Shown here: positions 7,853 to 13,979 of the stretch, one piece after another
Layout: each line of letters begins with the position of its first letter
Position numbering within the stretch: position 1 is the first letter of the stretch
Assembly: GCA_021297985.1 (NCBI GenBank)
Contig: JAJTGU010000087.1
Span: 1-43,323 of the forward strand
From: Rubrivivax sp.
Lineage (GTDB): Bacteria; Pseudomonadota; Gammaproteobacteria; Burkholderiales; Burkholderiaceae_C
DNA: 43,323 nucleotides
Direction: 5' to 3'
The notes under the pieces: model-generated
What the model was told of the DNA's origin: nothing
Database searches by the model: none
Seen by the model: the letters and a program-made list of their open reading frames with translations, nothing else
Program-made: the position numbers and the translations under genes

Positions 7853-8950
7853 TCAGGTGCCTGAACTGATCGTGATGCTGGGGAACTTGGCGCTGTAGTC
7901 GCGCGACTGGGCGGCGATCTTCAGCGCGACGGCACGGGCGACATCGCGATAGATCTGCGCTTCCGGGCTTTCAGGCGCTGCGACCACGGTCGGCCGACCG
8001 CTGTCGGCCTGTTCGCGGATCGCCATCGCCAGTGGCAGGGCGCCCAGGTAATCGACGCCGTACTGCGTCGCCATCGCCTGTCCGCCGCCTTGACCGAAGA
8101 TCGCTTCCTGGTGCCCGCAGTTCGGGCAGCAGAACATGGCCATGTTCTCGACGATGCCCAGGATCGGCACGCCGACCTTCTCGAACATCTTCAAGCCCTT
8201 CTTCGCATCGATCAGGGCGATGTCCTGCGGCGTCGTGACGATCACCGCACCGGTCAACGGCACGCGCTGACTGAGCGTGAGCGCGATGTCGCCGGTTCCG
8301 GGCGGCATGTCGACCAGCAGATAGTCCAGATCGCGCCAGTTGGTCTGACGAAGCAGTTGCTCCAGCGCCTGGGTCGCCATCGGACCGCGCCAGATCATGG
8401 CCTGGTCCTGCTCGATCAGGAAGCCGATCGACATCACCTGCAGGCCGTAGTTCTCCATCGGGTCCATGGACTTGCCGTCGGCGCTTTCGGGCCTGCCCGA
8501 CAGGCCCAGCATCATCGGCTGGCTGGGGCCGTAGATGTCGGCGTCCAGGACGCCGACCTTGGCGCCTTCGGCGGCCAGCGCCAGGGCCAGGTTGGCAGCC
8601 GTCGTGCTCTTGCCGACCCCGCCTTTGCCCGAGGCGATGGCGACGATGTTCTTGACGCCGGGCAGCAACTGCACGCCGCGCTGAACCGCATGGGCCACGA
8701 TGCGGGTGGAAAAGTCGATGTCGACCTCGCCGACGCCGGGCACGGCACGCACTGCGGCCGTCAGCGCCTTGCGCAAACCGGCCTGGCGGCTGCGGGCCGG
8801 GTAACCGAACTCGATGTCGAAGGACACGTCGCCGTTCGACGCGATGCGCAGGTTCTTCAGCGCCTTGCTGCTGACGAAGTCCTGGCCGGTATCGGGGTTG
8901 ACGACAGCCTGCAAGGCGGCGAGGACGGCGGTTTCTGAAGGAGCACTCAT
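7853..8950 (-). CDS. apbC: Iron-sulfur cluster carrier ATPase (Mrp/ApbC)
   Basis: A 365-residue protein with two parts. Residues 1 to about 90 form a MIP18/DUF59 domain ([17 protein letters not shown]). The rest is a deviant-Walker P-loop NTPase: the Walker [19 protein letters not shown], a switch region [15 protein letters not shown], and [13 protein letters not shown]. The CCPNCG motif in [12 protein letters not shown] supplies the cysteines that hold a bridging Fe-S cluster in the dimer. It delivers Fe-S clusters to apo-proteins in the cytosol. Length is normal (E. coli 369). Start ATG 8950. It is divergent from metG with 74 bp between starts, a common arrangement in proteobacteria. Confidence 0.96.
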
Positions 8951-9024: not shown

Positions 9025-11085
9025 ATGATCCGAAAGCTCTTCGTCACGACCGCGCTGCCCTATGCCAACGGCCCGTTCCACATCGGCCACATCATGGAGT
9101 ACATCCAGGCCGACACGTGGGTGAGGCTGCAGCGCATGCTTGGCCACGAGGTTCACTTCGTGTGCGCCGACGACACCCACGGCGCGCCGATCATGATTGC
9201 AGCCGAAAAGGCCGGGCTCAGTCCGCAGGACTTCGTCGCCGGCATCGCTGCGGGCCGCAAGCCCTATCTCGACGGCTTTCACATTGCCTTCGACCACTGG
9301 CATTCCACCGATGCGCCCGAGAACCACGCACTCGCCAAGTCGATCTACCTGGCCCTGAAGGCCGACGACCTGATCGAGTCGCGCTCGGTCGAGCAGTTCT
9401 TCGACCCCGACAAGGGCATGTTCCTGCCGGATCGCTTCGTCAAGGGCGAATGCCCCAACTGCGGCGCCAAGGACCAGTACGGCGACAACTGCGAGGTCTG
9501 CGGCGCGGTCTACCAGCCCACCGAGTTGAAGAACCCCTACAGCGCGCTGTCAGGCGCGACGCCGGTCCTGCGCACCAGCGAGCACTTCTTCTTCAAGCTC
9601 AGCGACCCGCGCTGCGTCGAATTCCTGGAGTCGTGGACGCAGGACGGCCGCCTGCAGCCCGAAGTGGCGAACAAGGTGAGCGAATGGTTCAAGCGCGACG
9701 AGGCGGGCAAGGTCGGCCTCGGCGACTGGGACATCAGCCGCGAAGCACCCTACTTCGGCATCGAGATCCCCGATGCACCGGGCAAGTACTTCTATGTCTG
9801 GCTCGATGCGCCTGTGGGCTACCTCGCTTCGCTGCAGGCCCGGCTGGCCGCGCTGGGCATCGATTTCGAAGCCTACCTGGCCCAGCCCGACCTGGAACAG
9901 GTTCACTTCATCGGCAAGGACATCGTCACCTTCCATACCCTGTTCTGGCCCGCGATGCTGAAGTTCAGCGGTCGCAAGGTGCCTGACCGTGTCTACGTGC
10001 ACGGCTTCCTCACCGTCAACAACGGCGACAAGATGAGCAAGAGCCGCGGCACCGGCATCAGCCCGCTGCGCTACCTTGAACTCGGGTTCGACGCCGAGTG
10101 GCTGCGCTACTACATCGCGGCCAAGCTCAACGCCCGTGTCGAAGACCTGGATTTCAACCCCGAGGACTTCGTCGCCCGCGTCAACAGCGACCTGGTCGGG
10201 AAGTACGTCAACATTGCAAGCCGCGCGGCCGGCTTCCTGAACAAGCGTTTCAGCGGTCGATTGAGCGCCGACGTCGGCGTCGAGGGCCGGATGCTGCTGG
10301 ACACGCTGCGCGGTGCGTCCGACACCGTGCGCGACCTGCTCGACAGCCGCGAGTTCGGCAAGGCGCTGCGCGAAACCATGCTGCTCGCCGACCGCGTCAA
10401 CGAGTACGTCGACCGCCACAAGCCCTGGGATCTGGCCAAGCAGCCGGGCATGGACACCGCGCTGCATGACGTCTGCACGGTCTGCATCGAGGCCTTTCGC
10501 GTGCTGACCGTCTACCTCAAGCCGGTGCTGCCGGCGCTGGCCACCAAGGTCGAGGCCTTCCTGCGGATCGAACCCCTGCGATGGGCCGACGCCCAACGCT
10601 CGATCGGGGCCCACACCATCGGCGAGTACAAGCACCTGATGCAGCGTGTCGACCCGGCCCGGCTCCAGGCGCTGTTCGAGCCACCCGCCGAGTCGGCTGC
10701 CACCCCGCCGCCCGCCGCCCTGCCCGGCGGCGAAGGGGTGGCCCCGGAGATCGGCATCGACGACTTCAGCAAGGTGGACCTGCGCATTGCCCGCATCGTC
10801 GCCGCCGAAGCCGTCGAGGGCAGCAGCAAGCTGCTGCGACTGACGCTGGACGTCGGCGAAGGCCGCACGCGAAACGTCTTCTCCGGGATCGCGGCGAACT
10901 ACAAACCCGAGCAACTGGCCGGCAAGCTGACCGTGATGGTGGCCAACCTGGCGCCCCGGAAGATGAAGTTCGGCCTCAGCGAGGGCATGGTGCTGGCCGC
11001 CAGCCATGCCGACGAAAAGGCCGAACCCGGGGTCTACGTGCTGGAGCCGTTTGCCGGCGCGAAGCCGGGCATGCGGGTGCGCTGA
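9025..11085 (+). CDS. metG: Methionine--tRNA ligase
   Basis: A 686-residue class I aminoacyl-tRNA synthetase charging tRNA-Met. The start is ATG 9025 ([17 protein letters not shown]); an upstream in-frame start would add 23 residues unlike the family. HIGH is at residues 19-22. The zinc knuckle CPNCG...CEVCG lies near 145-162, and KMSKS ([16 protein letters not shown]) near 337. After the anticodon-binding helical domain and a Pro/Ala linker (about 555-580), a C-terminal tRNA-binding OB-fold domain ([16 protein letters not shown]) completes the long dimeric form. The final 52 bp overlap, on the opposite strand, the end of the PEP-CTERM gene. TAAACT, about 8 bases before the start, could be a -10 element giving a very short leader. 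Confidence 0.98.
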
Positions 11086-11885
11086 GCGCGCCGCCGCACC
11101 ACCCCCGCCATCGCCAGCAGGCCGGCGGCCCACAGCGCCGTGGTACCCGGCTCGGGCACCACGGCCACCGTGTAGGCCCCGGAGAACGTCAGCTCGGTCG
11201 CCGGCGAGTTCAGCGCCGTGGCGGTGAAGTACCGCGACGACAGCGCCTTGCCGTCGTCGGACAGGCCGATGCGCAGCACGAAGGCCTCCTGCGGCTTCAA
11301 CGAGGCCAGGTTCCACTGCATCGCGACGATCGCGTCGCACCCCCCGCCTCCGGCGCAGCCTGCAGGCGGGCTGCCGTCGGTCAGGTTGTTGTTCAGCCGA
11401 AAGCCCGAGATGATGTTGTCCAGCGTCGGCAAGGCCATGGTCTCTCGACGCGCCGCCTCGCCAGCGACCGACCCGCCCCAGGACTCGCCAATTCGGTCGG
11501 CAAACAGGGCTGTGTCGCCGTCCGGGTTGGCGAAGACCATGAAGCGGATCTGATCGAAGCTCTCGACCAGGCTGTTGTTGGCGATCCGGTACTCCACCTC
11601 CAGCAACCCCGGGCCAAGGTTGCGGTGGCTGAACGTGAAATCCAGGTTCGAGTTGCGCTGCACCACGGTCTTTGCGGCGTCTCCGCCGCCCAGTCCGTTG
11701 ATGAAGACGTAGGGCTGGAGCTCAAACACCTCGCCGCCATTGCCGTAGGTGATGCCCGCAAAGTCGCCAAACGCATTGGGCGCGTTGACGACCGTCACCG
11801 CAGCCTGCGCCGCCGAGGCCCCAAACATCAGGGCTACGACAGCGGCGGCCAGTCGGCGTGAGACGAGAAAGCAGTTCGTTTTCAT
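11034..11885 (-). CDS. PEP-CTERM sorting domain secreted protein
   Basis: A 283-residue exported protein from ATG 11885, preceded by GGAGG at good spacing. Residues 1-28 form a signal peptide ([19 protein letters not shown]). At the C-terminus [19 protein letters not shown] followed by VRRRAQR (from residue 243) is a full PEP-CTERM signal: the PEP motif, a hydrophobic helix and an Arg cluster. In the family this is cut by an exosortase and the protein goes to the surface or matrix; no exosortase lies in this window. The body is beta-rich ([21 protein letters not shown]) with a Cys pair in CAGGGGCD. It is the last gene of a three-gene minus-strand set with 25 bp to the previous gene. Its last 12 or so residues, after the Arg cluster, come from DNA that also encodes the end of metG on the other strand. 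Confidence 0.9.
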
Positions 11886-11910
11886 GGTCAGGGTCCTCCG
11901 GAAATGAGGT

Positions 11911-13041
11911 TCAACGCGCGGGCCGCTCGGCTTCGGTCGCATCCACGAGGTCGTACTCGCGCACGAGCCCCGGGGCGACGAAGTTCTGCTGCGACGTGAT
12001 GACACGCTCGGGGCCGACCTGCGACACCAGCACCTTCAGCGATGGCCGCAGCACGCCGCAGACCGGGCACAGCGGCGGGTTCGGGTCGTCCGGATGCGGA
12101 TAGGCCTGGCGAAGTCCGATCAGGATGGTCAGCCGGCCGGCCTTGCGCACGCCCTCGTTCCAGAGGTCATCGGTGATCTCGTCGGTCAGCGTCTTCAGGC
12201 TCTTGGACAGCGCCGGGTTCAGCTTCGGGTCCATCTGCGCATCGGCCCAGCCGTCGATGCGTGCGACCTGCACGCCGGCGTCGTCGATCGCAAAGGTGGC
12301 ACTGCCCGGTGCGATCACGTGCGTGAGCGGTTGCCCGTTGAGCGGGTTGCGCATCAGACCTGCCGGCAGCACGAACGCTCGTGGCAACTGCACCACCTTC
12401 TGGATCGGGATCCGCACGCCCGTGCGGCGCTCGGCCTCGCTCGCCACCGCCAGGGTCCGCACCGGGTACGGGTTCTTGGCCCCAGGGGGCGGCTGCGGGA
12501 TCTCCGAGCGCGGCACCCCCAGCAACTCGGCAAAGTCCAACGCCCTCTTGTAGGCCTCCTCGTCGGTCATGCGCACGGGCTTCGGGTCGCTCGTCCCACC
12601 GGGCACGAAGGCTGCGCGGCGGATGAACTTGACGTTGCCCTGGCCGATGTTCTTGCTGAACGAGAGCATCGTGTAGGCGCTGCCGCCGATGTCGTCGCGC
12701 TTGCCGGCTTCGAGGATGCACTGCCCTCGGTCGGGCTCGCCGGCGCTGGTGGTGTTGCTGCGGCAGTCGGGTGCGCTCACCGCACCGGCTCGGCCGAAGG
12801 TCGCCGGCACGATCTTCTGCAGGTTGAAGTTGCGCGAGATCGCGCCGTCGGGCTTGATCGTCATGACGCGGTTGACGATCTCGCGGCTGTTGTCGCCGAT
12901 CACGGGCTGCAGCGCGGCGTTGACGGCGGCGCGCAATTCGTCCTTGGGCGGGCGGGGCTGGGCCTGCGCCAGCGTCGTGCCCAGCAGCAGGGCGGCGGCC
13001 ACGGCGCTGGCCGCGACGCGAAGGGTGGAGGTGGTGGTCAT
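11911..13041 (-). CDS. Secreted protein of unknown function
   Basis: A 376-residue protein from ATG 13041 (MTTTSTLRVAASAVAAA) with a clear signal peptide, likely cut after TTLAQA (about residue 26). I do not recognise the family. Cys93 and Cys108 could form a disulfide; Cys325 and Cys328 form a CPVC pair near the C-terminus (PPLCPVCGVLRP). There are Pro-rich stretches (IPQPPPGAKNPYPV) and mixed alpha/beta composition, with no membrane segment after the signal. It sits between the caspase-like gene (17 bp upstream) and the PEP-CTERM gene (25 bp downstream), all on one strand, so one transcript is likely. Roles as an inhibitor, chaperone, propeptide acting in trans, or substrate of the upstream protein are speculation from position. 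The start is fixed by the signal peptide; a longer upstream frame overlaps the neighbouring gene. Confidence 0.8.
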   Translation of the reverse strand: MTTTSTLRVAASAVAAALLLGTTLAQAQPRPPKDELRAAVNAALQPVIGDNSREIVNRVMTIKPDGAISRNFNLQKIVPATFGRAGAVSAPDCRSNTTSAGEPDRGQCILEAGKRDDIGGSAYTMLSFSKNIGQGNVKFIRRAAFVPGGTSDPKPVRMTDEEAYKRALDFAELLGVPRSEIPQPPPGAKNPYPVRTLAVASEAERRTGVRIPIQKVVQLPRAFVLPAGLMRNPLNGQPLTHVIAPGSATFAIDDAGVQVARIDGWADAQMDPKLNPALSKSLKTLTDEITDDLWNEGVRKAGRLTILIGLRQAYPHPDDPNPPLCPVCGVLRPSLKVLVSQVGPERVITSQQNFVAPGLVREYDLVDATEAERPAR

Positions 13042-13058
13042 GGTGCGGGCTCCGGGCA

Positions 13059-13979
13059 TCAGGGGTTGAAGGCGTCCTGGGCGACCGGGTCGCAGCCGAG
13101 GTAGCCCATCCAGGCGTAGAAGTTGCGCGAGCTCGGCGGGCCGAAGGCAGCCGAGTTGTTGTAGCGCTCGTTCAGCAGGCGGTTCAGCGCATTGCCTCCC
13201 GAGGGACCGATGGTCATCGCCGTCGGACACTGGTCCTGGCAGGTGCCGAACCAGTTGAACGGGTCCCAGGCCTCGCATGAGAACTGGTTCGTCTTGTAGT
13301 GGTTGGTGACCCACGCATGCGCGACTCCGTGCACATGGCCGTCGATCGCGGTGTCGGCGTAGTCGCCGTTGAACGACGAGGTGATCCACATCACGCCGTG
13401 GAAGCCGGTCATGACGTGCAGGCCCTTGCTGCTGCCGGCGTTGACCTTCTTCATCGCCACGCGCATGTTGCCGAAGTAGTTGTCGTTCAGGCTCAGGCAC
13501 GAACTGGCATGCAGGAACTTGAGGTTGCTGTCGCCGACGAAGGTGTTGCCGCTGGCCTTGCCCATGCGCAGGCCGCACTCGCCGTTCCAGGCGTTGCGCA
13601 TCAACGCGCCCCAGCGGTCGCCGTCGTCCCACCCGTGGGCGGCGATGATGGCCGCGTCGGGCCAGTCGACCCAGCTGAAGTCGGCGCAGGCCGGGTTGAC
13701 GCTCGGATCGCAGAAGCGGCGAACGGTCATGTTGCCGTCGACGAACTTGCCGGTCTTGGCATGGCCCATCAGGCCCATCCACTCGTACCACGCGTTGGCC
13801 ATGCCGGGCCAGGATCCGCGGTTCGAATCGACATCGCCGGGTGCGCAGTCGCCGCCACTCCAGTTGCCGATCGCGTACATGTCCACCTTCAGCGCCAGCG
13901 CCGAAGACAAGGCGGTGCTGACCGCCACACCGACCAGCGTGCGCTGAAGCGCGCGCCGGGCTGGAATCCGAAATGCCAT
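13059..13979 (-). CDS. Secreted protein with caspase-like (clan CD) His/Cys motifs
   Basis: A 306-residue exported protein from ATG 13979, preceded by AGGAGAG at good spacing. Residues 1-29 are a signal peptide (VSTALSSALA). The mature part has a hydrophobic strand ending in His-Gly (DAAIIAAHGWDDG, His115) and, 46 residues later, a strand ending in Cys (LKFLHASSCLSL, Cys161). Strand-HG then strand-xxC with roughly this spacing is the hallmark of clan CD cysteine peptidases (caspases, gingipains). A further strand with GLHVMTGFHGV follows. Other cysteines (45, 90, 98, 135, 235, 247, 251, 296) suggest disulfides. It may belong to the group I recall as DUF6345; that is unverified. It is the first gene of the three-gene secreted operon. 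Protease activity is inference; it could equally be an inactive fold relative. Confidence 0.72.
   Translation of the reverse strand: MAFRIPARRALQRTLVGVAVSTALSSALALKVDMYAIGNWSGGDCAPGDVDSNRGSWPGMANAWYEWMGLMGHAKTGKFVDGNMTVRRFCDPSVNPACADFSWVDWPDAAIIAAHGWDDGDRWGALMRNAWNGECGLRMGKASGNTFVGDSNLKFLHASSCLSLNDNYFGNMRVAMKKVNAGSSKGLHVMTGFHGVMWITSSFNGDYADTAIDGHVHGVAHAWVTNHYKTNQFSCEAWDPFNWFGTCQDQCPTAMTIGPSGGNALNRLLNERYNNSAAFGPPSSRNFYAWMGYLGCDPVAQDAFNP

Follow-up and report, generated by a model that had tools for sequence, protein, structure and literature searches.

A putative caspase-like DUF6345 protein, a probable PepSY-type partner and a PEP-CTERM protein encoded together in a secreted operon of Rubrivivax sp.

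What might three exported proteins, encoded one after another in a small operon, do together at the cell surface? The question is raised by a stretch of 43,323 nucleotides from Rubrivivax sp. (assembly GCA_021297985.1, contig JAJTGU010000087.1, positions 1 to 43,323 of the forward strand; hereafter the window), for which an earlier note, made from the letters alone, had described a caspase-like protein (P1), an unrecognised secreted companion (P2) and a PEP-CTERM surface protein (P3). Our follow-up searches lead to a reading which, taken as a whole, we give an even chance of being right: P1 would be a caspase-fold peptidase, P2 a PepSY partner acting on it in trans, and P3 a PEP-CTERM protein serving as substrate or anchor.

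The conserved residues and the fold of P1

P1 matched the Pfam family PF19872 (DUF6345) with 44.8 bits against a cut-off of 26.9 (E-value 1.3e-11) and no other Pfam family up to an E-value of 1; there was no curated match to the peptidase families C14 or C25, and no clan CD profile among the Pfam and TIGR models matched P1 itself. Searches with PF19872 hit 12 of 299 genomes of the same family, 2 of 369 of the class and 2 of 299 of the phylum, the window's own genome being included each time, and it overlooks some P1-type genes, as only three of the six same-family genomes that carry P1 (see below) are among the 12. The earlier note had pointed to a His-Gly pair at residues 115–116 and a Cys at residue 161, reminiscent of clan CD (caspases and gingipains), and had made conservation of His115 and Cys161 a test of that idea. 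Both motifs are present as claimed, and in an alignment of 14 DUF6345 relatives the His is kept in all 14, the Cys in 13 and Gly116 in 13, though the aligned sequences have few other residues in common. The Cys is replaced by Ser in a P1-type protein of genome G826 (L022:1363-2274; 38.8% identity), which has an intact P2 homologue adjacent to it and may be a naturally occurring variant that is inactive or of serine type. Neither P1 nor P2 found a relative in plasmid searches, another DUF6345 protein gave a single record there, and a viral contig scan with a nine-row alignment found no relative among 50 candidate stretches. Another match to DUF6345, a partial one (L019, genome G650) that is perhaps a remnant, falls where a long and probably spurious frame ends; it covers profile positions 130–216 only and was excluded from all alignments.

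An AlphaFold2 model of P1 built from seven sequences had a predicted local distance difference test score (pLDDT) of 34.9 and was useless, and we therefore turned to profile comparison for the question of fold. Using hhalign, 19 DUF6345 sequences were compared with 20 C14 sequences (of 31 listed matches), 10 CHAT (of 16), 4 C25 (of 4) and 15 abhydrolase sequences (of 30 loci), all taken from genomes of the window's class or phylum; 14 (of 17) FTP sequences were used for the partners below. Two near copies, L015 (of L012) and L016 (of L014), are inside the 19-sequence set and the export comparison and outside alignments A6 and A7 and the leave-one-out test. The DUF6345 profile matched C14 with P 0.0075 over 113 columns and CHAT with P 0.0043 over 93 columns, and in both alignments H115 fell on the His and C161 on the Cys that we take to be the catalytic residues of these families, with the segment before also aligned. 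None of 60 block-shuffled templates reached the score for C14, and none of 60 for CHAT; for the abhydrolase control P was 0.3 over 7 columns, and 9 of 60 shuffles attained its score. The ten canonical DUF6345 sequences taken separately gave P 0.0057 against C14, over 65 columns ending before the Cys, and P 0.011 against CHAT over 46 columns. When 14 members were searched singly against Pfam, that of L017 touched C25 (E-value 0.0082, short of the cut-off) over a region spanning its His and Cys, and one touched C14 (E-value 0.19). Judging from these weak but specific matches we consider it likely that P1 has a clan CD core. The caspase/gingipain idea of the earlier note is supported, though not proven, by the conserved residues and by the register of the whole DUF6345 profile with C14 and CHAT; the P1-type subset alone matched neither family, and C25, the gingipain family, went unmatched.

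Such a core would not by itself make P1 an enzyme, and it is conceivable, though in our view unlikely, that P1 is a binding or structural protein with P2 as its export chaperone and P3 tying the complex to the surface. This would suit the Cys-to-Ser homologue beside its intact P2, a natural variant that counts against a peptidase, and the failure of P1 to match any Pfam peptidase family. It would also suit the mean pairwise identities over six triads, which are far higher for P1 (67.8%) than for P2 (50.7%) or P3 (44.7%), as expected of any core component. However, the retention of the His and Cys amid so little other conservation is harder to explain for a non-peptidase, and a partner resembling a pro-domain points to an enzyme that has to be held in check; we lean, if not strongly, towards P1 being an active peptidase.

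It is improbable, to our mind, that P1 lies outside clan CD altogether, its HG and Cys serving another alpha/beta fold, a disulphide or a metal site and the profile matches being due to chance, but a number of results do weigh on that side. The P1 model failed; the nine P1-type sequences on their own matched neither C14 (P 0.6) nor CHAT (P 0.27); C25, represented by four sequences of which three are partial, gave no match (P 0.5); unrelated Pfam families reached E-values of 0.01, 0.042 and 0.24 in the same single-member scan; and neither P1 nor the DUF6345 profile matched any chain when PDB sequences were searched. In addition, the matches that were obtained lie at P 0.004–0.0075, whereas C14 and CHAT pair with each other at P 2.1e-8 in an identical set-up. 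Against this, two independent clan CD families share one register in their alignments with DUF6345, matching it at both catalytic residues, with no shuffled template doing as well in either case, and CHAT and C25, which are both filed in clan CD, reach only P 0.034 between them. As a separate observation, the window's genome yielded nine matches to the C14 caspase domain, one to CHAT over the cut-off and one of full length to C25, and a second, weak CHAT match overlaps one of the C14 matches.

P2 and the partners of other DUF6345 proteins

P2 had been called unrecognised, which holds for Pfam, where it matches no family, but not for structure. An AlphaFold2 model of P2 from six sequences (pLDDT 75.1, predicted template modelling score 0.74) was compared with the PDB by Foldseek and matched the C-terminal domain of YpeB (5boi; E-value 1.2e-4, probability 0.99), the sole match with an E-value of 0.001 or less among 813. 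According to the published account, this portion of YpeB consists of PepSY domains (PMC6660665). The CPVC pair is present in P2, and both Cys are kept in all six close P2 proteins and absent from the G826 protein, which is nonetheless a clear P2 homologue (27% identity, E-value 1e-29) beside a distant P1. A P2 profile searched against the PDB gave Villin-4 at an E-value of 0.92, which we dismissed.

Partners are not peculiar to P1. All ten further DUF6345 loci that we read (L002, L003, L011-L016, L018, L022) have a same-strand gene directly downstream, at 3–50 bp, and in L017 and a Deinococcus peraridilitoris plasmid protein (L023) a partner-like region is fused N-terminal to DUF6345. The fused proteins are encoded at L017:1477-3189 and L023:2627-4531, the Deinococcus one having a lipoprotein-like start and its gene lying between IS3 and IS110 transposase genes on the plasmid. 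Nine partners, the two fused regions included, matched 14 FTP-PepSY metalloprotease pro-domains with P 7e-5 over 82 columns, as compared with P 0.43 for C14, 0.31 for abhydrolase, 0.81 for CHAT and 0.94 for DUF6345 as controls. We also left out each partner in turn and searched the 10–41 open reading frames (ORFs) of its locus with a model of the remaining partners plus the pro-domains; the partner ORF ranked first in nine of nine loci, with E-values of 0.0068 or less in seven and of 0.028 in L017. Finally, export status, assessed from the hydropathy of the N-termini, was identical within all 16 pairs of a DUF6345 protein and its partner (including the near copies L012/L015 and L014/L016), eight pairs having hydrophobic N-termini (peak at least 1.58) and eight lacking them (at most 0.96).

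With the structural match taken into account, we are fairly confident that P2 is a PepSY-type protein; by sequence alone its place among the PepSY-type partners is not proven. Telling against the assignment are the missing Pfam match, the low TM-scores of the P2 model against YpeB (0.20/0.30), and the distances of the P2 family from the DUF6345 partner family (P 0.045) and from the FTP-PepSY pro-domains (P 0.093, in the same register, with an abhydrolase control of 0.24). For the partner family as a whole, the L002 partner was not significant in the leave-one-out test (E-value 0.46). Pfam found no PepSY or FTP in P0005, in six separate partners or in the two fusions. We give little credence to P2 acting on some other target, as YycI-like or other PepSY proteins with their varied partners might, P1 and P2 being linked through co-expression only: it would accord with the weak sequence relation of P2 to the other partners and with the only PDB match of the partner profile, YycI at an E-value of 0.29, but not with the partner-like fusions to DUF6345, the matched export status, the identical distribution of P1 and P2 in 299 genomes, or the correlation of their identities over six triads (0.96 for P1/P2 versus 0.71 for P1/P3 and 0.74 for P2/P3, common descent alone also yielding correlation).

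Linkage and layout of the three genes

Whether the three genes travel together had been set beforehand as a further test, and we found the triad adjacent in nine distinct genomes. A P1 search of genome contigs identified six loci, five of them with P2 and P3 homologues downstream of P1 and the sixth (L009) with sequence that stops 26 bp past P1. Among the 299 same-family genomes the P1 profile was found in six, from three genera, and the P2 profile in the identical six; P3 adjoins P1-P2 in every one of these, and two of the six triads repeat those of L007 and L010 (same identities), which brings the total to nine. A search of 36 additional genomes from the window's genus found P1 in none, and the distribution of the triad is sporadic. 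When the flanks of ten loci were compared, over at most about 7 kb per side and with several loci ending sooner, common flanking ORFs were seen only in the pairs L007/G607, L010/G598 and L006/L009; the linkage of P1, P2 and P3 is therefore not accounted for by general synteny. Over six triads the intergenic gaps, which depend on the start codons that we picked, are 15–136 bp for P1-P2 and 25–92 bp for P2-P3. The G826 locus (L022/L083) has a P1-P2 pair with no P3, the next ORF of at least 120 residues beginning 0.7 kb further on and reading as an oxidoreductase. P1 and P2 are the core, and the PEP-CTERM gene is an add-on, absent beside the G826 pair. One of the triads is in an Aquincola genome (L084, G607), with P1 starting from about 5967 and P3 at 8081-8908, and A. 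tertiaricarbonis RN12 very likely carries the triad. RN12 is a floc-forming strain for which transposon mutants and complementation have been described (PMC9850573).

For the three consecutive genes the layout first given is correct throughout, from strand and coordinates to protein lengths and the gaps of 17 and 25 bp, and so are the signal peptides, each protein having an N-terminal hydrophobic segment behind basic residues (12-residue hydropathy peaks of 1.70 for P1, 2.48 for P2 and 2.44 for P3); the features are listed in Table 1. Upstream of P1 lies a divergent gene and at the P3 end a convergent one, which from their translations read as genes for a SulP transporter and metG, respectively; because the metG-like gene converges on P3 and the SulP-like gene diverges upstream, the operon comprises only P1-P2-P3. 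The 3' end of P3 overlaps the metG-like 3' end on the opposite strand by 52 bp (window 11034-11085). A sigma-70 scan found no site for the operon, and three terminator-like matches are close to the shuffle mean of 1.7. A sigma-54 site of the kind mapped for pepA was considered upstream of P1 and rejected, there being no consistent site in nine loci and the best having 2–4 mismatches; as background, 86.6 kb contained 12 two-mismatch matches.

Table 1. Features of the operon, in window coordinates.
Feature	Position	Strand	Basis
P1 (306 aa), DUF6345 protein with export signal; putative cysteine peptidase of clan CD	13059..13979	-	PF19872 match; in-register profile match to C14 and CHAT
P2 (376 aa), exported partner of PepSY type; putative chaperone/inhibitor acting on P1	11911..13041	-	YpeB-matching model; distribution same as P1
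P3 (283 aa), surface protein with PEP-CTERM signal; putative substrate or anchor	11034..11885	-	TIGR02595; third place in 9 distinct genomes
His115 codon, putative catalytic His of P1	13635..13637	-	14/14 aligned DUF6345 proteins
Cys161 codon, putative nucleophile of P1	13497..13499	-	13/14 aligned; Ser in L022
CPVC of P2, residues 325-328	12058..12069	-	both Cys in 6/6 close P2 proteins
Pro-Glu-Pro of P3 sorting signal	11148..11156	-	strict PEP in 4/6 aligned P3 proteins

The sorting signal ascribed to P3 was recovered by TIGR02595 (16.9 bits, cut-off 16), Pfam PF07589 scoring just under its own cut-off (20.6 against 20.7), and the search for an exosortase that had been recommended gave three PF09721 matches over the cut-off in the genome. 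The P3 tail continues for about 20 residues beyond the basic end of the signal. That P3 is the substrate or the anchor of the system is a tentative proposal.

A proposed mechanism and its relation to known systems

FTP/PepSY-type pro-domains chaperone and inhibit their own metalloproteases. In the mechanism that we propose, P1 would be an exported DUF6345 protein with a caspase/CHAT-type core and a His115/Cys161 dyad, and P2 would play in trans the part that an N-terminal FTP/PepSY pro-domain plays in cis, aiding the folding of P1 and holding it inactive through export. P1 would be released once P2 is removed or degraded, and P3, processed by exosortase at the cell surface, would be its substrate or anchor, such that the operon could be a surface processing or shedding device. 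That P1 cleaves proteins, that P2 controls it and what P3 does are inferences, and of these we favour control of P1 by P2 by a narrow measure. It may further be speculated, with more doubt than belief, that DUF6345 proteins are in general clan CD peptidases with an FTP/PepSY control element, fused or separate according to lineage, and that the Burkholderiales pair has been coupled to an exosortase-sorted protein as a self-contained surface-shedding or matrix-remodelling operon. Further points argue against the proposed mechanism: the G826 pair lacks a P3; the PEP motif is degenerate in two of six aligned P3 homologues (VPVP in L008, VPEA in L010); and, in a study of YpeB and its enzyme SleB, the best in vitro inhibitor of SleB is the YpeB N-terminal domain, not its PepSY part (PMC6660665).

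A full-text literature search, covering few subscription papers, found nothing on DUF6345 or PF19872 and nothing joining clan CD and PepSY, and queries combining caspase-like, PepSY and propeptide, PEP-CTERM and caspase, or PepSY and cysteine protease returned only titles that look unrelated. The operon thus appears to present known folds in an undescribed combination. If our reading is correct it offers a testable function for the uncharacterised DUF6345 and its unannotated neighbour, suggests that a type of pro-domain found in metalloproteases also controls caspase-like enzymes, and makes P1 a candidate protease of the PEP-CTERM surface system.

The operon touches several known systems. It resembles the PEP-CTERM/exosortase system in that P3 bears a sorting signal and the genome has exosortase matches. 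With 26.8 bits on the model of the flocculation protein PepA, P3 is far below the cut-off of 80. By position, too, P3 is not pepA: it adjoins P2, whereas in RN12 pepA adjoins prsT (PMC9850573). Within DUF6345, P1 shares the HG and Cys motifs of the other members but is exported and lies beside a PEP-CTERM gene, whereas eight of the ten members examined outside its close clade lack an export signal. With clan CD, which includes C14 caspases and metacaspases, CHAT and the C25 gingipain family, P1 shares the order of HG and Cys, which in the whole DUF6345 profile are in register with C14 and CHAT; we know of no clan CD enzyme that has a PepSY-type partner. The FTP/PepSY pro-domains of M4/M36-type metalloproteases are matched by the DUF6345 partners, whose fused counterparts in the L017 and Deinococcus proteins are likewise N-terminal; however, the proposed enzyme would be of cysteine type, its domain is usually encoded by a separate downstream gene, and P2 is divergent. 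The YpeB-SleB pair of Bacillus spores differs in that SleB is a lytic enzyme for peptidoglycan, but there too an enzyme has a secreted PepSY protein as its companion, and it is the PepSY region of YpeB that the P2 model matches. YpeB may keep SleB inactive until YpeB is proteolysed (PMC13393411), much as we propose that P2 would restrain P1.

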